Origin: an uncultured Alphaproteobacteria bacterium
GTDB taxonomy: Bacteria > Pseudomonadota > Alphaproteobacteria > Rhodobacterales > Rhodobacteraceae
Direction of reading: 5' to 3'
Assembly: GCA_929200255.1 (NCBI GenBank)
Contig: CAKMYZ010000008.1
Span: forward strand, 62,001 to 126,000
Length of the DNA stretch: 64,000 nt
In this document: in pieces, positions 4,281-24,431 of the stretch
Layout: each line of letters opens with the position of its first letter
How positions within the stretch are numbered: position 1 is the stretch's first letter
Notes under the pieces: model-generated
The model's database searches: none
What the model saw: only the letters and a program-made list of their open reading frames with translations
What the model was told of the DNA's origin: nothing
Program-made: the position numbers and the translations under genes

Positions 4281-4390
4281 AGGCTATCCCTTCAAAAACA
4301 TGTTCGGTCCCTTGCGGGTGATCGGTGCCAACTGCCATAAGCAGTGGGGCATGTCAAAGCCTTTGGCACCTGAAATATGAGTAGTTGGAT

Positions 4391-5080
4391 ATGGGCCGTC
4401 ATACGCTTGAAGGCAACCCCCCGATCGATGTCATTTTGCGCCAGTCAGCACGCGCCAAGCGGTTGTCCTTGCGCGTATCGCGTCTGGATGGCCGTGTTAC
4501 CCTGACGATGCCGCAGCATGCACCGCTGCGCGAGGGAATCGCCTTTCTGCGCAGTAAGGAGGTTTGGCTGCGCGGGAATCTGGCTGATCTGCGCCCGGTT
4601 GCGAAGGCAGATGCAGGTGGCACGGTGCTTTTGCGTGGGGAAGCTGTGCCGATTCTTGCGGGGCCGTGGAGGCGCGCGTCGTTGACAGACGAAGGATTGC
4701 GTGTCGCTGAAGGTACGCCTGCGGGCCCACAGGTAAAGGCCGTCCTGCGGCATCAGGCGCGCGATGTGCTGGTTGCGGCTTCGGATCGATACTCGGCTGC
4801 TTTGGGTCGCAGCTATACCCGGTTGACGATCAGAGATACGCGGTCGCGCTGGGGGTCTTGTTCAGCGCAGGGCGCACTGATGTATTCCTGGCGCTTGATC
4901 ATGGCCCCGCCTGAGGTGCTGGACTACGTTGCCGCCCATGAGGTTGCCCATCTGGTCGAGATGAACCACCAGCCCGCGTTTTGGGCCACTGTGGCCGCGC
5001 TCTACCCTAACTATGCTGCGCCCCGCCAATGGCTGCGCGATCATGGTGATGCGTTGCATCGTGTGAGTTTTGGCGATTGA
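4391..5080 (+). CDS. YgjP-type (DUF45/M48-like) zinc metallopeptidase (229 aa)
   Basis: This is a predicted metal-dependent hydrolase of the YgjP/SprT-like group. The zinc motif HEVAH is at residues 183-187, with a third ligand His193 in MNHQPAFW, and the family hallmark TRSRWGSCSAQG lies at about 150-161. There is no signal peptide, so it is cytoplasmic. The ATG at 4391 (MGRHTLEGNPPIDV) is preferred; a TTG two codons upstream is also possible. It is followed after 31 bases by the GntR-type regulator gene on the same strand, though the operator-like palindrome in that gap suggests the regulator has its own promoter. The substrate is unknown for this family. Confidence 0.88.
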   Translation: MGRHTLEGNPPIDVILRQSARAKRLSLRVSRLDGRVTLTMPQHAPLREGIAFLRSKEVWLRGNLADLRPVAKADAGGTVLLRGEAVPILAGPWRRASLTDEGLRVAEGTPAGPQVKAVLRHQARDVLVAASDRYSAALGRSYTRLTIRDTRSRWGSCSAQGALMYSWRLIMAPPEVLDYVAAHEVAHLVEMNHQPAFWATVAALYPNYAAPRQWLRDHGDALHRVSFGD

Positions 5081-5093
5081 CGCGGCTGCTGTT

Positions 5094-5103
5094 TGTGATC
5101 ACA
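5094..5103. promoter_or_regulatory. TGTGATCACA operator-like palindrome before the GntR/FCD gene
   Basis: A perfect 10-bp palindrome lies 8 bases upstream of the GTG (11 of the ATG) start of the regulator gene, with a further half-site TGTGAT at 5111-5116. The same decamer occurs in pairs upstream of sucC and sdhC in this window. Its position over the translation or transcription start fits autorepression, which is inference. Confidence 0.6.
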
Positions 5104-5111
5104 TTTGACCT

Positions 5112-5762
5112 GTGATGATCCAGCCCCGCTCACAGGATAATACGACCGCCGCACATGAGCGGGTGTATCGCGCGCTTCGCACCCGTATCATGCACGGAGA
5201 GATCCCCCCGGGGGAGGCGCTCACGTTGCGCGGTATCGGCAAGACCTACGATGTTTCCATGACGCCCGCACGCGAGGCAGTGCGCCGTCTGGTGGCAGAA
5301 GGGGCATTGTTCTTATCTTCGTCCGGTCGGGTCTCGACACCTGCACTATCAAATGAGCGTATCGAGGAGCTGGCCACGTTACGTGCCTTGTTGGAACCTG
5401 AACTGGCCTCGCGCGCATTGCCGCGCGCGCATTTCGCCTTGATCGAGCGTCTGGAGACGATCAATCACAGTGTCAGTAAGGGGATCGCACGCCACGATGC
5501 GACAGGTTATATTCGCATGAACCTGGACTTCCACCGCACACTTTATCTTCGGGCCCAGGCCCCTGCGATGCTGGCGATGGCAGAAACAGTATGGTTACAA
5601 CTTGGGCCGACGATGCGCGCACTATATGGGCGACTAAACCGGACGGAGCCGCCTTACAATCACAAGCTCATCCTTGCGGCTCTTAAAGCCGGCGATGAGC
5701 CGGGCTTGCGCCTTGCGGTGCGTACCGATGCCACGCAGGGCCTGCGGATGCTCAAAGGTTAG
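5112..5762 (+). CDS. GntR family transcriptional regulator, FadR/FCD subfamily (216 aa)
   Basis: The N-terminal winged helix spans about residues 12-80 (HERVYRALRTRIMHGEIPPG, then SMTPAREAVRRLVAEGAL), the classical GntR pattern. The C-terminal all-helical FCD effector domain follows (ELATLRALLEPELASRA; FHRTLYLRAQAP; a late HKLILAALKAGD with a conserved His), which in characterised relatives binds a small organic acid, often with a metal. The start is GTG 5112 or the adjacent ATG 5115. A TGTGATCACA palindrome sits directly upstream and recurs before sucC and sdhC, making this the best candidate in the window for a TCA-cycle regulator; that link is inference. The 3' end overlaps the convergent neighbour by 11 bases. 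Confidence 0.88.
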   Translation: MMIQPRSQDNTTAAHERVYRALRTRIMHGEIPPGEALTLRGIGKTYDVSMTPAREAVRRLVAEGALFLSSSGRVSTPALSNERIEELATLRALLEPELASRALPRAHFALIERLETINHSVSKGIARHDATGYIRMNLDFHRTLYLRAQAPAMLAMAETVWLQLGPTMRALYGRLNRTEPPYNHKLILAALKAGDEPGLRLAVRTDATQGLRMLKG

Positions 5763-9555: not shown

Positions 9556-10746
9556 TCACAAATCCATCAGCAAGCGCCGTGGATCCTCGAGTGCTTCTTT
9601 GACGCGCACAAGGAAGGTCACCGCCCCTTTGCCGTCCACGATCCGGTGGTCGTAGGACAGGGCCAGATACATCATGGGCCGGATCACCACCTGACCGCCA
9701 ATTGCCATGGGCCGATCCTGGATTTTGTGCATGCCGAGGATGCCTGACTGTGGCGGGTTCAGGATGGGTGAGGACATGAGGCTGCCGTAGACCCCACCGT
9801 TGGAGATGGTGAAGGTGCCACCTTGCATTTCGGCCATGCTCAACTTGCCTTCGCGGGCCTTGGCACCTTTTTCTGCAATCGCCTTTTCGATACCGGCGAA
9901 TGACATCTGATCAGCATCGTTGATCACCGGCACGACAAGGCCTGTGGGCGTGCCCGCCGCGATCCCCATGTTGACGTAGTTTTTGTAGACCACGTCAGTG
10001 CCGTCGATTTCGGCGTTTACCTCTGGGACTTCGTTCAGGGCGTGGATGCAGGCCTTGGTGAAGAACGACATGAAGCCGAGCTTCACGCCATGCTTTTTGA
10101 GGAACAGATCTTTGTACTCGGTGCGCAGTGCCATCACCTCGGTCATGTCGACCTCGTTATAGGTGGTCAGCATGGCGGCGGTGTTCTGGCTGTCCTTCAG
10201 GCGCTTGGCGATGGTCTGGCGCAGGCGGGTCATCTTGACCCGTTCCTCACGACCGGCCTGATCAGCAGCGACCGGTGCCCGCGGTGCCGCAGCGGGGGCA
10301 GCGGCCGGGGTGGCGAGGGCGTTCAGCACATCCTCTTTCATCACACGGCCATCTTTGCCGGTGCCAGTGACATCTGTCAGGTTGTTTTCGGCCATCAGTT
10401 TTTTGGCCGATGGGGCGTCTTCGACATCCTTTGCTGCGGGTGCTGCGGCTGGGGCAGGGGCCTCTTGCTTGGGTGCTTCGGCTTTTGCGGCGGGCGCGGG
10501 CGCGGCATCGCCTTCGGCGATTTGTGCCAGCAAGGCATCAACGCCGACGGTTTCGCCTTCGGCGGCGATGATTTCGGACAGGGTGCCAGCAATGGGGCTT
10601 GGCACCTCAACTGTGACCTTGTCAGTTTCCAGTTCGCACAGCATTTCATCTACGGCTACAGCATCGCCAGGTTGCTTGAACCATGTGGCGACGGTTGCCT
10701 CGGTCACGGATTCGCCAAGGGTGGGGACGCGGACTTCGGTGCTCAT
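9556..10746 (-). CDS. sucB: 2-oxoglutarate dehydrogenase E2, dihydrolipoamide succinyltransferase (396 aa)
   Basis: E2 transfers the succinyl group from the E1-bound intermediate to CoA. An N-terminal lipoyl domain has the lipoylated Lys43 in [14 protein letters not shown]; an Ala/Pro-rich linker (about 85-110) follows, then a peripheral subunit-binding domain ([21 protein letters not shown]) and the catalytic domain ending with the HxxxDG motif (HRIVDG, His367 and Asp371). The start at 10746 overlaps the sucA stop by 4 bp (ATGA), so translation is coupled to E1. The Ala/Pro linker produces many spurious open frames on other strands. The succinyl rather than acetyl specificity is inferred from adjacency to sucA. 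Confidence 0.96.
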
Positions 10747-13703
10747 TGCTTTGTTCCTTTGATGGTCAGCGCATCGTCGACGAGGGCTGTTTGTTGTGCT
10801 TTGTGCTGGCTGGCCAGACCTGTGGCTGGGCTGGCCGCCGCGGCGCGCCCGGCATAGACGGGGCGGGTGTGTTTGGCTTTGATACGGGTGAGGACCCATT
10901 CAAGGTTGGGTTCCATGAACGACCATGCGCCCTGGTTTTTGGGTTCTTCCTGGCACCAGACCATTTCGGCGTTCTTAAAGCGGCTCAGCTCGTTCACCGC
11001 AGATTGTGCAGGGAAGGGATAGAACTGTTCATAGCGCATGATGTAGACGTCTTTGATGCCGCGTGCGTCGCGTTCTTCCAGCAGGTCGAAGTAGACTTTG
11101 CCAGAGCACATGACGACCCGTTTGATCTTGCTGTCGGCGACCAGTTTAGTGTCAGAGTTGCCCAGTTGCGCATCGTCCCAGAGGACGCGGTGGAAGGATG
11201 ACCCGGTGGTGAATTCTTCCTTCTTGGAAACCGCCAATTTGTGCCGCAACAGCGACTTGGGTGTCATCAGTATTAGCGGTTTGCGGAAGGTTCGGTGCAG
11301 CTGGCGCCGCAACAGGTGAAAGTAGTTGGCCGGCGTTGTGCAGTTGGCCACGATCCAGTTGTCGCCGCCGCACATGGTCAGGAACCGTTCCAGACGTGCA
11401 GAGGAGTGTTCCGGCCCTTGCCCTTCATACCCATGCGGCAGCAAGCAGACGAGGCCGGACATGCGGAGCCATTTGCTTTCCCCGGAACTGATGAACTGGT
11501 CAAACATGATTTGCGCGCCATTGGCAAAATCGCCGAACTGCGCTTCCCAGAGGGTCAATGCGTTGGGTTCGGCCAGCGAATAACCATATTCGAACCCCAG
11601 CACCGCATATTCTGACAGCATTGAATCGATGACTTCGTACTGTGCTTGCCCCTCGCGGATGTTGTTGAGTGGGTAGTAGCGGTCTTCATTATCCTGATTT
11701 ATCAGACCCGAATGCCGGTGGCTGAATGTGCCGCGCGTACAATCCTGGCCGGACAGGCGCACAGGATAACCTTCGGTGAGCAGTGATCCAAAGGCCAGTG
11801 CTTCGCCGGTCGCCCAATCGATGTTTTCGCCGGTCTCGAACATCTTGGCCTTGTTGTCGATCAGGCGTCCGATGGTTTTGTGCAGTGGGAAGTTTTCAGG
11901 CGCTGTTGACAGCGCTTCACCCACGGCGTTGAAGGTCGCTTCTTCAATCGCAGTCACACCGCGTTGATAATCCTCGTCCTTGCGATCGAGGTGAGACCAC
12001 TTGCCGTCCAGCCAGTCGGCCTTGTTGGGCTTATATGCTTTGCCTGCCTCAAACTCTTCGTTGAGGTAGGCTTGGAAAGCCGCTTTCATGTCCTCGATTT
12101 CGCCTTCGGGGATCAGCCCGTCCTGCACCAGCCGTTCTGTGTAGAGCGTCAGCGTCGTCTTCTGCTTTTTGATCTTCTTGTACATCACCGGGTTGGTGAA
12201 CATCGGCTCGTCGCCTTCGTTATGACCAAAGCGGCGATAGCAGATGATGTCCAGCACCACGTCCTTGTGGAACTTCTGGCGGAATTCGGTAGCCACGCGG
12301 GCGGCATGAACCACGGCCTCTGGGTCGTCACCGTTTACGTGAAAGATCGGCGCCTCAACCATCAGCGCGATATCAGTGGGGTAAGGTGAAGATCGCGAAA
12401 AGTGCGGTGCCGTGGTGAAACCAATCTGGTTGTTCACGACGATGTGCATCGTGCCGCCGGTTTTGTGACCTTTCAGCCCCGACAGGCCAAAGCCCTCTGC
12501 CACAACGCCCTGGCCCGCAAAGGCCGCATCGCCATGCAGCAGGATGCCCATGACGCGGGTGCGGTCTTCGTCGTTCTTTTGGTCCTGCTTGGCACGGACT
12601 TTACCCAGCACAACCGGGTTTACAGCCTCAAGATGGGACGGGTTTGCCGTCAGCGAAAGGTGAACCGAGTTGCCGTCAAAGCTGCGGTCAGATGAGGCGC
12701 CGAGATGGTATTTCACATCGCCCGAACCATCCACATCCTCAGGTTTGAAAGACCCGCCTTGAAACTCGTTAAAGATTGCGCGGTAAGGTTTTTCCATCAC
12801 ATTGGCGAGCACCGAAAGACGGCCCCGGTGCGGCATGCCGATGATAATCTCATCAAGCCCCAGCTGCCCGCCGCGCTTGATGATCTGTTCCATCGCAGGG
12901 ATCAGGGCCTCGCCGCCATCAAGGCCGAAACGCTTCGTGCCCATGTATTTGACGTGCAGGAATTTTTCGAAACCCTCGGCCTGAACCAATGAATTCAGGA
13001 TCGCCTTGCGCCCCTCTTTGGTGAACGCGATTTCCTTGCCGTAACCTTCGATGCGTTCTTTGAGCCAGCCGGCCTCTTCGGGGTTGGAAATATGCATGTA
13101 TTGCAGCGCGAAGGTGCCGCAATATGTCCGCCGCACGATGGCAAGGATGTCGTTCATTGTCGCGACTTCGAGGCCAAGAACGTTGTCGATGAAAATCGGG
13201 CGATCCATGTCAGCAGCGGCAAATCCGTAGGACGCCGGGTCCAGCTCTGGATGCGGTTTTTGATCGCGCATGCCCAGCGGATCAAGATCGGCAATCAGGT
13301 GGCCGCGAATACGGTAGGCGCGGATGATCATCAGCGCGCGGATGCTATCAAGGACAGCGGCGCGGACTTGGCCCTCATCAAGGGTTACGCCTTTCTCGGC
13401 GGCTTTGTCCTTGATCTTTTTACCTGCAGCCTCTGGTTCTGCGGGCCATTGGCCATCCAGCGCTGCGGTCAGATCATCCGCAGGGGCGGGGGGCCAGTCA
13501 TTGCGCGCCCAGGATGGGCCAGCAGCCTCTGCCTTGGCGTCCGTCGGAGCATCATCGAGGGCCTTAAAGAACGCCTGCCAGCTTTCATCCACAGCGCCGG
13601 GGTTATCGGCGTAGCGAGCGTAGAGTTGTTCGACGTATTCGGCGTTATGGCCTTGCAGGAAAGACGAGGCGTGGAAAACGTCGTTGGGGGATTGGTCGTT
13701 CAT
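10743..13703 (-). CDS. sucA: 2-oxoglutarate dehydrogenase E1 component (986 aa)
   Basis: This thiamine-diphosphate enzyme decarboxylates 2-oxoglutarate in the TCA cycle. It starts [20 protein letters not shown] with the E1o N-terminal segment ([20 protein letters not shown]). Active-site signatures include [44 protein letters not shown] with NNQIGFTT (ThDP/Mg region), and FSHRHSG and [16 protein letters not shown] in the transketolase-like C-terminal half. The length is typical of alphaproteobacteria. It overlaps DUF805 upstream and sucB downstream by 4 bp each. Confidence 0.97.
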
Positions 13704-14288: not shown

Positions 14289-15170
14289 TTACCCAATCGC
14301 TTCCAGCACAGCCTCACCCAGTGTCGCGGGGCTGTCGGCCACCACGATCCCGGCAGACTTCATTGCTTCGATCTTGCTTTCCGCGTCGCCTTTGCCGCCT
14401 GCCACAATCGCACCGGCGTGACCCATGCGGCGGCCCGGAGGGGCTGTGCGTCCGGCGATGAAACCTGCTGTTGGTTTCCAGCGCCCTTTTTTCTTTTGGG
14501 CGGTCAGGAATTCAGCGGCTTCTTCTTCGGCGGACCCGCCGATTTCGCCGATCATGATCATTGAGTGTGTTTCGTCGTCATCAAGGAACATGTCGAGCAC
14601 GTCGATGTGTTCTGTCCCTTTGATGGGGTCACCGCCGATGCCCACGGCGGTGGACTGGCCCAAACCGCTGTCAGATGTCTGCTTGACCGCCTCATAGGTC
14701 AGCGTGCCGGAGCGGGACACAACGCCGACCGATCCGCGTTTGTGGATGTGGCCGGGCATGATGCCGATCTTGCAGGCGTCGGGTGTGATGACGCCGGGGC
14801 AGTTGGGGCCGATCAGACGCGAGGCAGACCCTTCCAGCGCCTTTTTGACGCGCATCATGTCGAGGACAGGGATGCCTTCGGTGATGCAGATGATCAGTTC
14901 CATCTCGGCGTCAATCGCCTCAAGGATCGAATCCGCCGCGAAGGGCGGGGGCACGTAGATGACAGAGGCGTTCGCCTCGGTCTTGGCCTTCGCTTCGTGG
15001 ACCGAGTTGAAGATCGGCAAGTCCAGATGTGTCTGCCCGCCTTTGCCGGGGGTCACGCCGCCGACCATTTTGGTGCCGTAAGCAATCGCCTGTTCAGAAT
15101 GGAATGTCCCCTGCGAACCGGTAAGGCCCTGACAGATGACTTTTGTGTTTTCGTTTACGAGAATGGCCAT
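14289..15170 (-). CDS. sucD: Succinyl-CoA synthetase (ADP/GDP-forming) alpha subunit (293 aa)
   Basis: It catalyses substrate-level phosphorylation from succinyl-CoA together with SucC. It has an N-terminal CoA-binding Rossmann domain ([28 protein letters not shown]) and a ligase domain with the phosphohistidine His251 in [15 protein letters not shown]. The length is standard. It is separated from sucC by a 161-aa gene with 12- and 7-base gaps, an unusual interruption of a pair normally adjacent. The ATG at 15170 follows an AAGGAG ribosome-binding site. Confidence 0.97.
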
Positions 15171-15675: not shown

Positions 15676-16869
15676 TCACCCCTTCACCGCTTTTACGATC
15701 TTCTGCGCGCCGTCTTTCAGGTCGTCTGCAGCGATCACGTCTACGTCGGAGTTGTTGATGATGTCTTTGCCCTGCTGCACGTTTGTGCCTTCAAGGCGCA
15801 CGACGAGTGGGACTTGCAGGCCGACCTCCTTCACCGCGGCGACAACGCCCTCTGCGATGACGTCGCAACGCATGATGCCGCCGAAGATGTTCACGAGGAT
15901 GCCTTTGACGTTGGGGTCAGAGGTGATGATCTTGAACGCCTCGGTCACTTTTTCCTTGGTCGCACCGCCGCCCACGTCAAGGAAGTTGGCAGGTTCGGCC
16001 CCGTAAAGTTTGATGATGTCCATCGTCGCCATGGCAAGGCCCGCGCCGTTGACCATGCAGCCGATTTCACCATCCAGCGCGATGTAGTTCAGGTCGAACT
16101 TGGAGGCGGCGAGTTCCTTGGGGTCTTCTTCCGTCTCATCCCGGAGGGCGGCCACATCGGCGTGGCGGTAGACGGCATTGCCGTCGAATGCCACCTTGGC
16201 ATCAAGCACTTTGAGGTCGCCGCCGTCGGTGACGATCAGTGGGTTAATCTCAAGCATTTCCATGTCTTTTTCGACGAAGGCTTGGTATAGCTGGCCCATC
16301 AGTTTCACGCATTGTTTGACCTGATTGCCGGTAAGCCCGAGTGCAAAGGCCACGCGGCGGCCATGGAACGGCTGATAGCCGGTGGCCGGATCAATGGTGA
16401 AGTTGAGGATTTTCTCAGGTGTGTTCGCCGCAACTTCTTCGATGTCCATGCCGCCCTCGGTCGAGACAACAAAGCCAATGCGGCTGGTTTGACGATCCAC
16501 GAGTAGGGCGAGGTACATTTCGGTTTCGATGCCAGAGCCGTCTTCGATATAGATCCGGTTAACGACTTTGCCTGCCGGGCCGGTCTGGTGCGTGACCAAT
16601 GTGCGGCCTAGCATCTTCTTGGCTTCCTGGGCGGCTTCCTCGACCGATTTCGCCAGACGCACGCCGCCTGCTTCACCGGCGTCGGCCTCTTTGAATTTGC
16701 CTTTACCGCGTCCGCCTGCGTGGATTTGCGCTTTGACAACCCAAAGCGGGCCGTCCAATTCGCCGGCGGCGGTTTTGGCATCTTCGGCGCGGGTCACGGG
16801 GCGACCGTCAGAGACAGGCGCGCCATAGCTGCGCAACAAAGCTTTGGCCTGATATTCGTGAATGTTCAT
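15676..16869 (-). CDS. sucC: Succinyl-CoA synthetase beta subunit (397 aa)
   Basis: This is the ATP-grasp subunit that pairs with SucD. It starts [19 protein letters not shown] as in the family and contains [12 protein letters not shown] (nucleotide-binding loop), the grasp-domain segment [21 protein letters not shown] (Mg-binding) and the ligase region [17 protein letters not shown] with [15 protein letters not shown]. The start at 16869 is chosen by homology pattern and a GGAA ribosome-binding site; a longer frame upstream runs through the operator region and is not coding. It is the first gene of the suc cluster, with a pair of TGTGATCACA palindromes 99-129 bases upstream. Confidence 0.97.
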
Positions 16870-16967: not shown

Positions 16968-16998
16968 TGTGATCACAGTGGAAAAAAGTGTGATCACA
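16968..16998. promoter_or_regulatory. Paired TGTGATCACA palindromes in the sucC promoter region
   Basis: Two perfect copies at 16968-16977 and 16989-16998 are spaced 21 bp start to start (two helical turns), within the 204-bp divergent gap between sucC (minus) and a glycosyltransferase gene (plus). The same arrangement with the same 21-bp spacing occurs upstream of sdhC. By chance a given 10-mer is expected about 0.06 times per strand in a window this size. The binding protein is unproven; the GntR/FCD protein at 5112 is the candidate. Confidence 0.75.
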
Positions 16999-17073
16999 AA
17001 ACAAGGTGAGGTGGGTCATCCCGCGTATTTTATTCAGTTTTAAAGGATTCGCCGCGATGGTAGCCATGCAGCA

Positions 17074-18087
17074 ATGAGTGACGCGAAACCGACATGGGCC
17101 GTCGTGGCCACCGTGGATGAACCGCCTGCAGTGGTGCAGGCGTTGGTGGCGTGGCATTTGTCACTCGGGGCCGATGCGATCTATCTCTATTTTGATCGGC
17201 CCGACGATCCGGCAGCGGATATCTGTGCCCATCTTGATCAGGTGCGGATAACCCGGTGTGATGCGGCCCATTGGGCTGCCTTTGGGCGCAAACGCCCGCC
17301 GCGTCATGAGTTGCGGCAGGTCAGCAATGCCCGTCATGCCTACGCGGCGGCAACGGCGGATTGGGTGTTACACATTGATGCGGATGAATTTGTCTGGTGT
17401 CGTGGCGATGTGACGTCCTGCCTTGCGGATGTACCTGATGCGTGCGAAGCGGTGACCTTTCCAGTAGCGGAGCGGGTACACACGGGCCCCGCCACAACGG
17501 TTTTTGAAGGTGTATTCCGGTTGCCATTTGCCCAACCCGCCAAGGTCGGGCGTGCGATTTTTGGACCGTCCTATGACCTGACCTATCGTGGCTTGACCGG
17601 TCATGCGCAGGGCAAGGCGTTCAGTCGGGCAGGCCGCAGTTTACGCCTGTCGATCCACCGCCCGCGCCCGCATGAGAGAGAGGCCAAACTAGCTATACAT
17701 CGGTTCCCGGCGGATCGGATGGTCCTTTTACATTTTGAGGGGCTGACGCGGCAGCAATGGATCTTCAAAGTGCTGCGGATGGCCCAAGCGTTAGAACATG
17801 ACGACGGCATGCCGCCTTCGGCACACCGGGCCGGGCAGGCAGCGGCTGTACTGGAGGACCCTGATGCGGCGGGGGTGTTACATGATCTGCTCAAGACGGC
17901 GGATGCGGCGCGTTTGCGAACATTGGCGGCGCATGGGCTGCTGTTGCAGCTGCCATTTGATCCGCTGGACGCAATTGCGCGTTTCTTTCCCGATGCATTT
18001 GCTGATCTGAGCCCCGGTGCGATTGACCGCTGGCTGGCACTGAACAAGGCAGACACACTGTCGTATCTGGAACTGCCGAAAGGCTAA
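17074..18087 (+). CDS. Glycosyltransferase family 2-like protein (337 aa)
   Basis: This is a predicted cytoplasmic glycosyltransferase with a GT-A fold. The start [20 protein letters not shown], the [15 protein letters not shown] pattern and a DxD-type motif in [12 protein letters not shown] (metal and nucleotide-sugar binding, about residue 105) match the group of proteins called glycosyltransferase family 2/92-like. There is no signal peptide or membrane helix. The acceptor is unknown. It is divergent from sucC and shares the intergenic region containing the paired palindromes, so those sites could affect it too. It is convergent with mdh, with a shared terminator hairpin between them. Confidence 0.8.
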
Positions 18088-18090
18088 ACG

Positions 18091-18116
18091 AAAAAGGGCT
18101 GCCGGATGGCAGCCCC
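18091..18116 (-). terminator. Terminator of mdh (hairpin between convergent genes)
   Basis: A perfect 8-bp stem GGGCTGCC/GGCAGCCC with loop GGAT (18096-18115) is followed, on the minus strand, by TTTTT. It lies 24 bases beyond the mdh stop and just after the glycosyltransferase stop, so it may also serve the plus strand, though without a T-run there. Confidence 0.75.
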
Positions 18117-18139
18117 TTCCCAATGGATTATTTGGTTGT

Positions 18140-19228
<1,089 letters not shown>

Positions 19229-19267
19229 CTAACGAAAGACAAATGCAGCGGAAATCTGGGATCAGAT

Positions 19268-20023
19268 GTGATCGAGTTTGGGTGGCAGTTTTTTGTGGTC
19301 GGTATCCCGGCAATCATCTTTGGCGGCATTTCCAAGGGTGGATTCGGTTCTGGTGCCGCATTTGCTGCGGGCGCGATTCTGGCGTTGGTGGTGCCACCGG
19401 GGGCTGCGTTGGGCATTGTTCTGCCGCTCTTTATGCTTGTCGATGCTGCAACGTTAAAACCCTATTGGGGTAAGTGGCACTGGCCCTCTGCCAAAGGTTT
19501 GATGATCGGTGCTGTCCCCGGCTGTATCATTGCCGCTTTTCTTTATGCGGTTGTGGATGCGGACGTGTTCCGCTTGCTGATCGGGTTGATTTGTCTGACC
19601 TTTGTCGCGTTTCAGCTGAGCCGCGCGCTGGGCTGGTTGCAGGTTCGCCAAATACCGTTTTCCGCGCCTTTGGCGTGGTTTGCAGGCACGGTCAGCGGTT
19701 TTACCAGCTTTGTTAGCCACGCCGGAGGCCCGCCATCTGCGGTATTTCTACTGTCACAAGGGCTGAGCAAGACCGCCTATCAGGCGACAACGGTTGTTGT
19801 GTTTTGGGCAGTGAATTGGATGAAGGCAGTCCCTTATGTCTTTCTGGGTATTTTTAACTGGGACACGATGATGGGCAGTCTGATGCTCTCCCCTTTTGCC
19901 TTGCTGGGCGCGTGGATCGGCGTCCGGGCGCATCGTCTGGTCCCGGAGCGCCCGTTTTTTGCGCTGACTTATGTTTTGTTGGTGTTGACAGGCGCCAGGT
20001 TGATCTGGGTGGCGTTGACTTAA
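19268..20023 (+). CDS. TauE/SafE family sulfite exporter-like permease (251 aa)
   Basis: This is a membrane permease of the TauE/SafE (DUF81) family, with about eight hydrophobic segments. The family's glycine-rich half repeats are present: GGISKGGFGSGAAFAAGA near the N-terminus and SGFTSFVSHAGGPPSAVFLL in the second half. The start is uncertain. I favour GTG 19268 (MIEFGWQFFVVGIPAI), which begins just before the first helix; the frame is open from 19130, but that extra sequence is not family-like. Members export sulfite, sulfoacetate or other organic anions, and the substrate here is unknown. It is divergent from mdh. A second, different TauE-type gene is at 40592. Confidence 0.82.
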   Translation: MIEFGWQFFVVGIPAIIFGGISKGGFGSGAAFAAGAILALVVPPGAALGIVLPLFMLVDAATLKPYWGKWHWPSAKGLMIGAVPGCIIAAFLYAVVDADVFRLLIGLICLTFVAFQLSRALGWLQVRQIPFSAPLAWFAGTVSGFTSFVSHAGGPPSAVFLLSQGLSKTAYQATTVVVFWAVNWMKAVPYVFLGIFNWDTMMGSLMLSPFALLGAWIGVRAHRLVPERPFFALTYVLLVLTGARLIWVALT

Positions 20024-20025
20024 GG

Positions 20026-20340
20026 TCAGGTACCGCGATCGAGATTGGCCAGCGGTTCGTTGATGTGCTGATAAGCCTGTCCAACGGCCACAAGGCAGGT
20101 TGGCCCACCCGGTCGTGTTACGGTGATCGTCCAGGAACCAGTGTCCATTGAGGCAAATACCTCGACCACGGAATTGTCGCTGGCCAGACCAATGGTCTGG
20201 CGGCTTTCGCCGTAGCGTTCGGCCAGTCGCTCAACGACCGTAGTGTGATCGGCGCAGCCGTTGCTCTCAGCATAGGACTGCTGGGCGGCCAGCATCATGG
20301 CTCCAACCCCGAAGGACATTAGAAAGAGTGTACGTCGCAT
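20026..20340 (-). CDS. Small secreted hypothetical protein (104 aa)
   Basis: A clear signal peptide (MRRTLFLMSFGVGAMMLAAQ, cleavage probably after SYA) is followed by an 80-residue mature domain with two cysteines (GCADHTTVVERLAERYGE ... GGPTCLVAVGQAY), possibly disulfide-bonded in the periplasm. The sequence ESRQTIGLASDNSVVEVFAS followed by TGSWTITVTRP is typical of small conserved roseobacter exported proteins annotated as hypothetical. It is convergent with the TauE gene (2 bases apart) and divergent from the malyl-CoA thioesterase gene. The function is unknown. Confidence 0.75.
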   Translation of the reverse strand: MRRTLFLMSFGVGAMMLAAQQSYAESNGCADHTTVVERLAERYGESRQTIGLASDNSVVEVFASMDTGSWTITVTRPGGPTCLVAVGQAYQHINEPLANLDRGT

Positions 20341-20482
20341 TATCGTCCCCTTTTTTCAAAGCGGGTCTCACAATAGTGGTCCGGCAGGTGGCGTAATTCT
20401 GTGGGCCAAGATGCGCGAAAATGGTTAATACACCGTAACGGTGCGTAGCCGCTGCGCTGCGGCATTCTCGCCTTGAACAATC

Positions 20483-20520
20483 TGCAAATTTGTGGCGTTC
20501 TTTGCGCAACTTTGTTGCAA
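20483..20520. promoter_or_regulatory. TGCAAA/TTTGC motif cluster upstream of the malyl-CoA thioesterase gene
   Basis: TGCAAATT (20483-20490), TTTGCGCAAC (20501-20510) and TTTGTTGCAA (20511-20520) lie within 50 bases of the start codon. TTTGCAA-type half-sites are bound by ScfR-family regulators (PccR, RamB) that control propionyl-CoA and ethylmalonyl-CoA pathway genes in Rhodobacter and Paracoccus. A similar pair lies upstream of ccrA. Binding here is inference. Confidence 0.45.
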
Positions 20521-20530
20521 GGAAAGTCCA

Positions 20531-21373
20531 ATGCAAGACCACCCGTACCGTTCAGCCCTTTATATTCCCGGCTCCAAGGACCGCGCCCTTGATAAGGCGC
20601 GCGGTCTGCCCGTTGATGTGATCCTCTTTGATCTGGAGGACGCCGTCGCCCCTGATGCCAAGGTCACCGCACGCGGCACGTTGCACGCCGCTTTGGCGGA
20701 TGGTGGATACGGTGCGCGCCTCAAGATTGTGCGAATCAACGGGTTGGATACGGATTGGGGTGCTGACGACGCTGCTGCCGTTGCAACGATGGTCTGTGAT
20801 GCGATCTTATTGCCAAAGGTGAACGGACCAGAGGACGTCGACGCCCTCGCCGCGTTGGTGCCTGATCTGCCGATTTGGGCAATGATGGAAACCCCACAAG
20901 GCATCCTGAATGCCCCGCAAATTGCCGCACATCCGCGCATTGCCGGTTTTGTGCTTGGCACAAATGATCTGGCCAAAGATCTCCATTCGCGTGGGCGCGT
21001 GGCCCTGATGACATCGTTGCAGATGTGCATGCTCGCCGCCAAGGCCGCAGGGATTGTAGCGCTTGATGGGGTCTACAATGCGTTCAAAGATGAGGAAGGG
21101 TTGCGCGCAGAATGTATAGAAGGCCGCAACATGGGCTTTGATGGCAAGACCCTGATACACCCGGCGCAGATTGGCATTGCCAACGCTGCTTTTGGCCCGG
21201 CGGCAGAGGACATTGATCTGGCTCGTCGCCAGATTGCGGCCTTTGAAGAGGCCGAAAAGGAAGGTCAGGGCGTCGCTGTGGTGGATGGCCGCATCGTTGA
21301 GAGCTTGCATATTGCGACTGCGCGCGCGACTTTGGCCAAAGCGGAAGTTATCGCTGCATTGGAGATGGAATGA
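20531..21373 (+). CDS. mcl2: (3S)-malyl-CoA thioesterase, HpcH/HpaI aldolase family (280 aa)
   Basis: The CitE-like TIM barrel starts MQDHPYRSALYIPGSKDRAL and contains VDVILFDLEDAVAPDAK (metal-binding Glu/Asp), IVRINGLDTDWG (conserved Arg), PIWAMMETPQGILNA and GFVLGTNDLAKDL. This pattern follows Mcl2 of Rhodobacter, which hydrolyses (3S)-malyl-CoA to malate and CoA in the last step of acetate assimilation by the ethylmalonyl-CoA pathway, rather than Mcl1 lyases. The ATG at 20531 has AAGGAAAG in front; an upstream in-frame ATG is rejected. It is the first of four tightly linked genes that end with mesaconyl-CoA hydratase, which supports the pathway assignment. Confidence 0.85.
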   Translation: MQDHPYRSALYIPGSKDRALDKARGLPVDVILFDLEDAVAPDAKVTARGTLHAALADGGYGARLKIVRINGLDTDWGADDAAAVATMVCDAILLPKVNGPEDVDALAALVPDLPIWAMMETPQGILNAPQIAAHPRIAGFVLGTNDLAKDLHSRGRVALMTSLQMCMLAAKAAGIVALDGVYNAFKDEEGLRAECIEGRNMGFDGKTLIHPAQIGIANAAFGPAAEDIDLARRQIAAFEEAEKEGQGVAVVDGRIVESLHIATARATLAKAEVIAALEME

Positions 21374-21924
21374 CGTTACTGGTTCTTGGGGTTGCCCTTT
21401 GGTGGGCGGCACATTTGTTCAAAAGATTGGCACCGGGCCGGCGGGCTGCCTTGGGTGCAAAGGGCTACCCAGTGGTGGCCGTCACCATACTGCTGAGCGT
21501 TCTGTTGATGGTGCTGGGCTATCGCGACGCTGGTGGCGCGGTCTACTGGGGCCGCGATCCAATGTGGGTTGGCATCAACAACCTGTTGATGATTGTCGCG
21601 TTCTATTTCTATGCCGCCAGCGCGGCACAGGGTCAGAAGATCTGGCTGGGTACCAAGGTGCGCCACCCGCAACTGACGGGCTTTTCGATCTGGGCCATTG
21701 CGCACCTGCTGGTGAATGGCGATACGCCGTCGTTCATCCTGTTTGGGGGGCTGCTGGCATGGGCCGCGGTTGAGGTTCTTGTGATCAATGCGCAAGACGG
21801 CCCATGGGAGCGGCCGGAGCGCGCGCCCGCTGCCAAGGAATTGGTGTCGATCATCATCACGCTTGGTGTCGTCTTTGTTGTGATGTTCGTCCACTATCTG
21901 CTGGGTGTCACGCCGTGGGGATAG
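21370..21924 (+). CDS. NnrU family membrane protein (184 aa)
   Basis: This integral membrane protein has five or six helices and the NnrU-family pattern: LWWAAHLFKRLAPGRRAALG near the N-terminus, then VGINNLLMIVAF, VRHPQLTGFSIWAIAHLLVNGD (conserved His/Pro/Asn) and LFGGLLAWAAVEVL. NnrU was named in a denitrification context, but relatives such as the 15-cis-zeta-carotene isomerase Z-ISO bind heme at conserved His residues. The gene overlaps the thioesterase stop by 4 bp and so is translationally coupled to a carbon-assimilation enzyme. The role here is unknown. Confidence 0.85.
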   Translation: MTLLVLGVALWWAAHLFKRLAPGRRAALGAKGYPVVAVTILLSVLLMVLGYRDAGGAVYWGRDPMWVGINNLLMIVAFYFYAASAAQGQKIWLGTKVRHPQLTGFSIWAIAHLLVNGDTPSFILFGGLLAWAAVEVLVINAQDGPWERPERAPAAKELVSIIITLGVVFVVMFVHYLLGVTPWG

Positions 21925-21928
21925 GCCG

Positions 21929-22132
21929 ATGAAGATCTATCGCTTGCTAACCGAGGATGACATATCCGCCTTTTGCCACAAGGTATCCGAGGCCCTGTCC
22001 AAGGGCTGGGAACTTTATGGTGACCCGACCTATGCCTATGACCACGCCAATGGTGTGATGCGCTGCGGGCAGGCGGTCACCAAAGAGATCGATCAACCTT
22101 ATTCCTCTGGCATGAAACTGGGTCAGCAATGA
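21929..22132 (+). CDS. DUF1737 domain protein (67 aa)
   Basis: This very small soluble protein starts MKIYRLLTEDDISAFCHKV and contains LSKGWELYGDPTYAYD and a C-terminal MRCGQAVTKEI, the DUF1737 pattern (a short alpha/beta fold of unknown function, often next to metabolic genes). The ATG at 21929 starts the conserved domain 4 bases after the NnrU stop; the frame is open a few codons earlier, but inside the upstream gene. Its stop overlaps the mesaconyl-CoA hydratase start by 4 bp. Confidence 0.85.
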   Translation: MKIYRLLTEDDISAFCHKVSEALSKGWELYGDPTYAYDHANGVMRCGQAVTKEIDQPYSSGMKLGQQ

Positions 22133-23154
22133 GCAAGACCAACCCTGGGCGCTTTTTCGAAGACTACAGCGTAGGAGAGGTCATTACACATGCTGTGCCG
22201 CGCACGGTATCCGGGGGTGAGCGGGCGATGTATCATGCGCTCTATCCCGCACGGGGGGCCGTTTATTCATCTGATGAATTTGCGCGCGCCTGTGGGCTGC
22301 CTGCATCCCCGATTGATGATCTGGCTACTTTTCACACGGTTTTCGGCAAGACTGTGCCGGATGTGTCGCTGAATGCGGTGGCCAATCTGGGCTATGCTGA
22401 AGGGCGCTGGCACTTGCCTGTCTACCCCGGTGATACGCTGACCTCTGCCTCCGAGGTGATCGGGGTCAAGCAAAACTCTAACGGCAGGTCGGGCGTTGTT
22501 TGGGTGCGCACGACAGGGCGCAACCAGCACGGTGATGTTGTGTTGTCATATGTGCGCTGGGTGATGGTGCGCAAACGCGGCGAAGGCGCGGCGCCAGACA
22601 CCGTTATTCCCGAACTGGCAAAAGTGGTTTTGGCAGATGATCTGATGGTTCCAGAGGGGCTGGATTTCTCCGGCTATGATTTTGCGCTGGCCGGTGAGCC
22701 GCATCGCTTGGGCGACTACGCAGTGGGCGAGATCATCGACCATGTTGATGGCGTCACAGTAGAAGAGGCTGAACATATGCTGGCCACCCGCCTTTGGCAG
22801 AACACTGCCAAGGTACATTTTGATGCAACCAACCGGCCTGACGGTAAGCGGTTGATCTATGGTGGCCATGTGATTTCAATGGCGCGTGCGCTGTCTTTCA
22901 ACGGGCTGGCCAATGCCCAGATGATCGTAGCGCTGAATGGAGGCACCCATGCCAGCCCCTGTTTTGCAGGCGATACTGTACGCGCCTGGTCCGAGGTGTT
23001 GGATATCACCGAGACCGGCGCGCCCGGTGTCGGGGCTGTGCGTCTGCGTTTGGTGGCGACCAAAGGGGCGGCGGGTATGCTGCGCGGTGAGGATGGCAAG
23101 TACGACCCTGATGTCCTGCTGGATCTGGACTATTGGGCGCTGATGCCTCTTTGA
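22129..23154 (+). CDS. mch: Mesaconyl-CoA hydratase, MaoC-like double hotdog (341 aa)
   Basis: It hydrates mesaconyl-C1-CoA to beta-methylmalyl-CoA in the ethylmalonyl-CoA pathway. Two MaoC-type hotdog domains are visible: the first half includes FFEDYSVGEVITHAVPRT and HTVFGKTVPDVSLNAVANLGYA, the second YAVGEIIDHVDGVTVEEAEHM with NTAKVHFDATNR and YGGHVISMARALSFNGLANA. These match the Rhodobacter sphaeroides enzyme closely from memory, including length (about 340 aa). It is the last gene of the mcl2-NnrU-DUF1737-mch operon, overlapping DUF1737 by 4 bp. A general MaoC dehydratase is the alternative, but the context makes Mch much more likely. Confidence 0.92.
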   Translation: MSKTNPGRFFEDYSVGEVITHAVPRTVSGGERAMYHALYPARGAVYSSDEFARACGLPASPIDDLATFHTVFGKTVPDVSLNAVANLGYAEGRWHLPVYPGDTLTSASEVIGVKQNSNGRSGVVWVRTTGRNQHGDVVLSYVRWVMVRKRGEGAAPDTVIPELAKVVLADDLMVPEGLDFSGYDFALAGEPHRLGDYAVGEIIDHVDGVTVEEAEHMLATRLWQNTAKVHFDATNRPDGKRLIYGGHVISMARALSFNGLANAQMIVALNGGTHASPCFAGDTVRAWSEVLDITETGAPGVGAVRLRLVATKGAAGMLRGEDGKYDPDVLLDLDYWALMPL

Positions 23155-23203
23155 CGACAACGGCGTGACTTGCAAGAATGCGTGCAACGCGTAGGTTGCG
23201 TGC

Positions 23204-23869
23204 ATGCGTGCATTCGTCCTCTCTAGTCTGCTGTGTCTTGGCGCCCCGGCACAGGGATGCGAAGTGGCGTTGATGCTGGCCGTCGATGTGTCGGGGTCGG
23301 TCAACGCCAATGAGTATCGCATTCAGATGGATGGGCTGGCAGCGGCCTTGGTTGATCGTGCGATTTCGGGTGCCCTGGTTGAGGGGCAAGCCAAGCTCGC
23401 CCTGATGCAGTGGACAGGGTCAGGCCGACAGAGAGTTGTCATCAACTGGACCGATATGACGGATCATGACGCGGTTGAAGGATTCGCTGAGCAGGTGACG
23501 CAGGAGCCGCGCCTGTGGCGCGATTTCTCAACCGCGATTGGCGAGGCCGTTGCCCTTTCGCTGGCCTATTTTGCCCAAGTGCCGGAATGCGAAAGGCATG
23601 TCATTGATATCTCGGGCGACGGCCCGAACAACGAAGGGCTCCCGCCCGCAGCGCTGTGGGACGACTTGGCCGAGGCGCAGGTCACGGTGAACGCGTTGGT
23701 AATCGAGGACAGCGAGCAAGGCCTGACCGACTATTTCGAGGCAGAGGTGATCACGGGCAACGGTGCCTTTGCCGTGACGGCGAACCGGTTTTCAGATTAC
23801 CCCACGCAGATCGCAAGGAAACTTTATCGTGAATTGACCAAGGTCGTCGCTGTGCTGGACCTAGAATAA
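23204..23869 (+). CDS. DUF1194 protein, secreted von Willebrand factor A-like domain (221 aa)
   Basis: A signal peptide (MRAFVLSSLLCLGAPAQG) precedes a single vWA-like domain. The MIDAS-type DxSxS motif is in LMLAVDVSGSVNANEY (about residues 24-31), followed by the DUF1194 features LMQWTGSGRQRVVINW and HVIDISGDGPNNEG (a second metal-coordinating Asp). It is periplasmic or secreted. It lies 49 bases after mch and may be on the same transcript; the function is unknown. The start codon overlaps a set of three TGCGTGCA direct repeats. Confidence 0.88.
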   Translation: MRAFVLSSLLCLGAPAQGCEVALMLAVDVSGSVNANEYRIQMDGLAAALVDRAISGALVEGQAKLALMQWTGSGRQRVVINWTDMTDHDAVEGFAEQVTQEPRLWRDFSTAIGEAVALSLAYFAQVPECERHVIDISGDGPNNEGLPPAALWDDLAEAQVTVNALVIEDSEQGLTDYFEAEVITGNGAFAVTANRFSDYPTQIARKLYRELTKVVAVLDLE

Positions 23870-23877
23870 CCGCGATA

Positions 23878-23908
23878 TGTGATCACAGGAATTTTCGGCG
23901 TGATCACA
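23878..23908. promoter_or_regulatory. Paired TGTGATCACA palindromes upstream of sdhC
   Basis: TGTGATCACA at 23878-23887 (perfect) and CGTGATCACA at 23899-23908 (one mismatch) are spaced 21 bp start to start, the same as the pair upstream of sucC. The pair begins 8 bases after the preceding stop codon and 170 bases before the sdhC start, in the only intergenic interval available for the sdh promoter. Confidence 0.75.
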
Positions 23909-24047
23909 TATCATCCCAATTCCGATATCCTATCACTTTTTCACAGTTTATCGCCGTGCCGTGGCGTGACTCTCTGCTTTGAATGGTGCAGAAAGACGTC
24001 AAAGGCGTCGCCTTGCTAGGCGACATGGGCCAACGAAGGGAACTGAT

Positions 24048-24431
24048 ATGGCTGACGTGAACCGGGGCGATCGCCCGCTTTCACCGCATCTGACGATCTA
24101 TCGTCCGCAATGGACATCGATGACATCGATCTTGGTGCGCATTACGGGCAATGCACTGGTCGTTGCCGCGGTGTTGATCGTGTGGTGGTTTGTCGCTGCG
24201 GCAACCGGGCCGGAAGCATTTGCCACAGCGAATGGATTTTTGACCAGTTGGTTTGGCGATCTGATCATGTTTCTGTCGGTTTTGGGCGTCTGGTATCACC
24301 TGCTGGGGGGGCTGCGCCATCTGGTTTGGGACAGTGGCCGCATGCTGGATGTTGAAAAATCAGAGCTCGCCGGTCAGATGATGATCGTGTTGTCGGTCTT
24401 GCTGACGATTTTCACCGTGGTTGTGGTTTAA
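24048..24431 (+). CDS. sdhC: Succinate dehydrogenase cytochrome b556 subunit (127 aa)
   Basis: This membrane anchor and heme/quinone subunit of complex II has the family signature RPLSPHLTIYRPQWTSMTSI followed by LVRITGNALV near the N-terminus, three transmembrane helices, and the heme-ligand region VWYHLLGGLRHLVWD (His pair). The ATG at 24048 is preceded by GAAGGGA at good spacing; the frame is open earlier but not family-like. It is the first gene of sdhC-sdhD-sdhA, preceded by the paired palindromes. Confidence 0.95.
   Translation: MADVNRGDRPLSPHLTIYRPQWTSMTSILVRITGNALVVAAVLIVWWFVAAATGPEAFATANGFLTSWFGDLIMFLSVLGVWYHLLGGLRHLVWDSGRMLDVEKSELAGQMMIVLSVLLTIFTVVVV

Follow-up and report, generated by a model that had tools for sequence, protein, structure and literature searches.

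Palindromic sites upstream of sucC and sdhC

The window analysed here, a stretch of 64,000 nt from an uncultured member of the Rhodobacteraceae, carries genes of the tricarboxylic acid (TCA) cycle at two places, and upstream of each lies a pair of palindromic sites spaced 21 bp apart (Table 1). A run of same-strand open reading frames (ORFs) is headed by sucC and includes sucD and sucA, while sdhC is found further along the window. Exact copies of the decamer TGTGATCACA start at window positions 5094, 16968, 16989 and 23878, and CGTGATCACA at 23899 constitutes the second site of the sdhC pair. The single copy at 5094 precedes a gene for a GntR/FCD regulator, from here on called candidate akgR.

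Table 1. Palindromic sites, associated genes and candidate promoter boxes, in window coordinates
Feature	Position	Strand	Remarks
Candidate akgR -35, TTGAC box	5077..5081	+	overlaps stop codon of upstream YgjP-like gene (4385-5080)
Single TGTGATCACA site, akgR promoter	5094..5103	.	8 bp upstream of GTG start
Candidate akgR, GntR helix-turn-helix and FCD domain regulator, 216 aa	5112..5762	+	Pfam; tracks the pair
sucA, 2-oxoglutarate dehydrogenase E1	10743..13703	-	NCBIfam NF006914
sucD	14289..15170	-	name from reading the translation
sucC, succinyl-CoA ligase beta subunit	15676..16869	-	NCBIfam NF001913; first of same-strand ORF run
sucC-proximal TGTGATCACA site	16968..16977	.	exact match; sucC on - strand
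sucC-distal TGTGATCACA site	16989..16998	.	21 bp from proximal site
Glycosyltransferase-like ORF	17074	+	divergent from sucC; also faces the sucC sites
sdhC-distal TGTGATCACA site	23878..23887	.	exact match
sdhC-proximal CGTGATCACA site	23899..23908	.	21 bp from distal site
Candidate sdhC -35, GTGACT	23966..23971	+	58 bp after proximal octamer; box conserved in relatives
sdhC, succinate dehydrogenase cytochrome b556 subunit	24048..24431	+	NCBIfam TIGR02970; Pfam Sdh_cyt

Dinucleotide shuffling of the window gave a mean of 0.07 exact decamers, and four or more copies, as in the real sequence, were reached in none of 100 shuffles. The 29-bp pattern GTGATCAC-N13-GTGATCAC, with up to two mismatches allowed, occurred at two places in the window and in none of the shuffles. 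A preliminary description of this stretch had reported the sites, their 21-bp spacing, the CGTGATCACA variant at sdhC, their rarity by chance and the extra copy before a regulator gene. Re-reading of the sequence and the shuffles bore out all of these points, and the last of them proved to be the key clue.

The whole genome (3.61 Mb) contains nine exact decamers, four of them in the window, compared to none in the reversed control; the decamer is rare in the genome. Of the five copies elsewhere, four fall within ORFs that have Pfam matches (DUF3179, Amdase, Amidohydro_1 and adh_short); the fifth (L008) is located outside ORFs of at least 110 aa, yet is overlapped by a 98-aa ORF. Exact pairs of the octamer GTGATCAC with a gap of 0-30 bp were found three times, upstream of sucC, upstream of sdhC and once elsewhere with a spacing of 38 bp, leaving the sucC and sdhC pairs as the only exact 21-bp pairs in the genome. 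When up to three mismatches were permitted, the scan for 21-bp pairs yielded 57 places, none of them with one mismatch, the next-best carrying two. Three near matches, AGTGATCACA at C2:60907 and C2:60967 and CGTGATCACA at C2:121720, are located within ORFs. Decamers with one mismatch are frequent (189 in the genome versus 17 in the reversed control), and single loose matches therefore mean little. This excess would be compatible with chance words in GATCAC-rich DNA, but the absence of pairs from the shuffles and the conservation of the pair before the same genes in relatives speak against it. A chance origin is refuted by that conservation, and we assign it a negligible probability.

Conservation of the pair in the family

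The family survey covered 198 genomes, one per genus, and a pair was defined as two exact octamers separated by a gap of 0-30 bp. Such a pair was present in 175 genomes, and the reversed control gave none in all 198. Among 75 listed pairs, the spacing was 21 bp in 62 and 20 bp in six; the other seven ranged between 13 and 31 bp. The genes preceded by the pair were read for 76 family pairs with a spacing of 20-21 bp, in many cases two from the same genome, and were sucC (39), sdhC (35), sucA (1) and a fumC-like gene (1). The sucC and sdhC promoters of relatives thus have the pair, and 74 of the 76 pairs read precede one of these two genes; further 20-21 bp pairs from hand-chosen genomes did so in 14 of 14 cases. 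In a set of 80 named loci, to which R. sphaeroides does not belong, all nine in which the start of sucC could be read together with 200 bp upstream of it had the 21-bp pair. Upstream of sucC, the sites follow the consensus TTTGTGATCACA-N11-TGTGATCACAAA, in which the spacer leans toward A/T and is not conserved. The paired element is real, strongly conserved and regulatory.

The glycosyltransferase-like gene that also faces the sucC sites adjoins only few of the pairs in relatives, which makes sucC the likelier target of the two. In one locus (L035, G177:C4), which has no sucC match, the pair is located between mdh and sucA; it precedes whichever suc gene is first. A third 21-bp pair was seen in one relative (L213:1001-2029, G042:C16) some 125 bp ahead of a Lyase_1 gene; this gene reads like fumC, which encodes another TCA enzyme. 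Two genomes have three GTGATCAC sites in a row at a 21-bp pitch (G135:C8:374318-374367 and G191:C11:327609-327658). On the sdhC side, a gene for a DUF1194/VWA-like protein (window 23204-23869) ends 8 bp before the sites, and several relatives likewise have a homolog ahead of their sdhC pair.

Beyond the family, a survey of the class with 385 genomes (spacer 11-14) found the pair in all five family members and in 5 of 380 others. Three of these others were inspected (L215, L216 and L223) and two were left out (L217 and L222). In L216:992-1903, from another family of the class, a 21-bp pair lies upstream of a GntR/FCD gene whose product is 29% identical to AkgR and which faces an ORF that, on reading, resembles a TonB-dependent receptor. 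Both the motif and the spacing may be common to a broader GntR subgroup.

The regulator gene and its relation to AkgR

The protein encoded at 5112..5762 belongs to the GntR family, with Pfam matches to GntR (1.7e-13) and FCD (2.1e-17). McbR of E. coli controls a regulon different from that of AkgR. Its sequence (PDB 4p9f) is the nearest solved one to the 5112 protein (residues 18-204, E 2.6e-18), yet distant from it. Residues N136, H140, H183 and D205 of the 5112 protein show conservation of 98% or more across 110 sequences, and we take these positions to recall the metal site of FCD domains.

A match to the 5112 protein at E<=1e-30 was found in 182 of the 198 family genomes. Gene and pair occurred together in 174 genomes, the gene only in eight, the pair only in one and neither in 15 (Fisher p 6e-16, uncorrected for relatedness). 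If weak matches (E above 1e-60) were scored as absent, these numbers became 171, 4, 4 and 19, respectively. Genomes without the pair mostly lack the regulator as well. Among the pairless genomes in which akgR had no match or a weak one, sucC was identified in 14; none of these had an exact octamer within 350 bp upstream of the gene, and two had a single octamer with one mismatch there. On inspection, G040, scored as having the gene only, showed two sites upstream of sucC at the 21-bp distance, with one mismatch in the pair. The number of exact decamers per genome, taken over a hand-chosen set, averaged 6.3 in 15 genomes with akgR versus 1.2 in 15 without it or with a weak match. In the class survey, akgR matches at E<=1e-30 were present in all five family members and in 18 of 380 others, the latter with 31-42% identity among the matches listed.

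AkgR of Rhodobacter sphaeroides is reported to be RSP_0981 and to activate TCA genes directly (Imam, Noguera and Donohue, mBio 2015). This GntR-family protein is predicted to control succinyl-CoA synthetase, succinate dehydrogenase and 2-oxoglutarate dehydrogenase (PMC4344238), and AkgR is termed an activator, with the palindrome GTGATCAC among its sites (PMC6365646). The system in the window resembles this regulon in the regulator family, the same three target operons and the GTGATCAC palindrome, and differs in the organism. For the targets sucCD, sdh and sucAB, sites precede sucC and sdhC, and sucA follows on the same strand as sucC. From these parallels we infer that the gene at 5112-5762 is the AkgR ortholog. 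The preliminary description was right about a control element shared by TCA genes, which is spacing-constrained and precedes such genes family-wide. Its suggestion that no regulator had been described, and that the regulon might be a new one, is not supported, since the literature ties the same operons and palindrome to AkgR/RSP_0981. Regulator, motif and regulon are already described, and the paired geometry is a modest addition.

Other known systems share single traits with this one. As far as the available text goes, a GntR regulator of the PS417_07240 type in Pseudomonas simiae has GTGATCAC upstream of its own gene and is 32% identical to AkgR, but its targets are deoxyribonate genes and pairing is not mentioned there (PMC6365646). 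CceR (RSP_1663), a regulator of central carbon metabolism in R. sphaeroides, has mdh and sdh as predicted shared targets but is a LacI-family protein with the motif GTT-N6-8-AAC (PMC4344238). A literature text search for GTGATCAC gave no title on AkgR or a TCA regulon among the matches listed, and searches combining GntR with sucC, sdhC or Rhodobacterales, or with TCA and palindrome terms, added nothing more on AkgR among the matches listed. AkgR is not named in the accessible portion of PMC5343134. No mention of the 21-bp pairing, of a fixed site before akgR or of joint loss was found in the accessible AkgR literature; the 2015 mBio paper may contain them.

The half-sites TGTGA and TCACA resemble those of CRP. 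The sites of CRP/FNR-type regulators have the form TGTGA-N6-TCACA, with a 6-bp gap, whereas the half-sites found here abut. We rejected a CRP/FNR-type site on this spacing and consider it very improbable. For R. sphaeroides, moreover, no CRP-analogous proteins are predicted (PMC4344238).

An undescribed regulator other than AkgR might bind the pairs, as the preliminary description had assumed. Several family genomes contain a second akgR-like match at E<=1e-30, and both the identity of AkgR and its binding are predicted here from sequence. Against this stand the tracking of the pair across genera by the gene behind the 5094 site, the site at a fixed place in the promoter of that same gene, and the link of palindrome and operons to AkgR in the accessible literature (PMC6365646, PMC4344238). 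We judge another regulator to be improbable.

Promoter geometry and a possible mode of action

In the relatives, 25 of 35 sdhC loci have a GTGAC[ATC] box at a distance of 57-60 bp beyond the proximal octamer, and 29 of 35 have one anywhere before sdhC, versus a shuffled mean of 3.1; a TAnnA consensus follows 16 bp after the box. The -10 position of sdhC in the window itself is a poor match (GCAGAA). Scanning 23860-24100 for sigma-70 promoters gave no hit, and the sdhC boxes therefore come from the comparison of relatives. Taken as -35 and -10 elements, these boxes would put the centres of the palindromes at about -97 and -118 from the inferred start, a location that would suit an activator rather than a blocker. 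No box was resolved for the core promoter of sucC, where GTGACH occurred in 2 of 39 loci versus a shuffled mean of 2.65. Transcription start sites have been mapped in R. sphaeroides (PMC7471390).

Alternatively, AkgR may be a repressor, or may bind without cooperativity, the 21-bp pitch then serving only to place the sites on the same face toward RNA polymerase. The case for activation consists of the word 'activator' in the accessible part of the literature and of the site position, and a 20-bp spacing was also seen (6 of 75 listed pairs). The location of the sites speaks against a repressor: in 25 of 35 loci they precede the conserved sdhC box by about 58 bp instead of covering it. The rows of three sites at a 21-bp pitch in two genomes suggest side-by-side contact. 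We regard repression or independent binding as unlikely, though as a serious alternative to cooperative activation.

At akgR itself, the full octamer was found upstream in 91 of 109 loci, a set in which some species are represented twice. In 86 of these 91, TTGAC starts exactly 18 bp before the octamer. In the window this box overlaps the stop codon of the YgjP-like gene, and coding constraint may account for some of its conservation. Its constant distance from the octamer still fits a putative -35 box with a dimer bound between the promoter boxes, and predicts autorepression of akgR.

Our preferred interpretation is that the sites very probably bind the AkgR ortholog encoded at 5112-5762, that paired dimers switch on the sucC and sdhC operons, and that a single dimer represses akgR. 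The ortholog is predicted to recognise palindromes like TTTGTGATCACAAA, each bound by a single dimer. Upstream of sucC and of sdhC, a pair of dimers would occupy the same side of the helix with two turns between them and would activate these operons, at sdhC from about -97 and -118. One dimer on the akgR promoter, 18 bp after the TTGAC box, would most likely repress the gene.

Several observations weigh against this interpretation. The pair is kept in G096, which lacks an akgR match, and in G019, G033 and G114, which have weak ones; these genomes are 77, 91, 74 and 100% complete, respectively. Conversely, G147, G155 and G166 (73, 92 and 71% complete) have akgR without an exact pair; a search for sucC in these genomes gave either nothing or just a paralog of about 50% identity. 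The full upstream octamer is missing from 18 of the 109 akgR loci. Orthology with RSP_0981 is proposed from family, targets, motif and co-occurrence, and other GntR/FCD proteins may share the motif, as the 21-bp pair in L216 illustrates.

More tentatively, the effect of AkgR may depend on how many sites there are and where they lie, with pairs near -97/-118 activating and the single akgR site repressing. It would then be a self-limiting activator of the TCA cycle with a conserved geometry not yet described, a proposal that we consider possible but doubtful.

The paired palindrome is a precise, scannable DNA signature that, throughout the family, is tied to an already described activator of the TCA cycle (pair in 175/198, akgR-like gene in 182/198 genomes). 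With this signature, AkgR regulons can be called from sequence and lineages in which the switch has been lost can be spotted. The 21-bp spacing gives a direct handle on the question of cooperative activation by paired dimers of a GntR/FCD protein.

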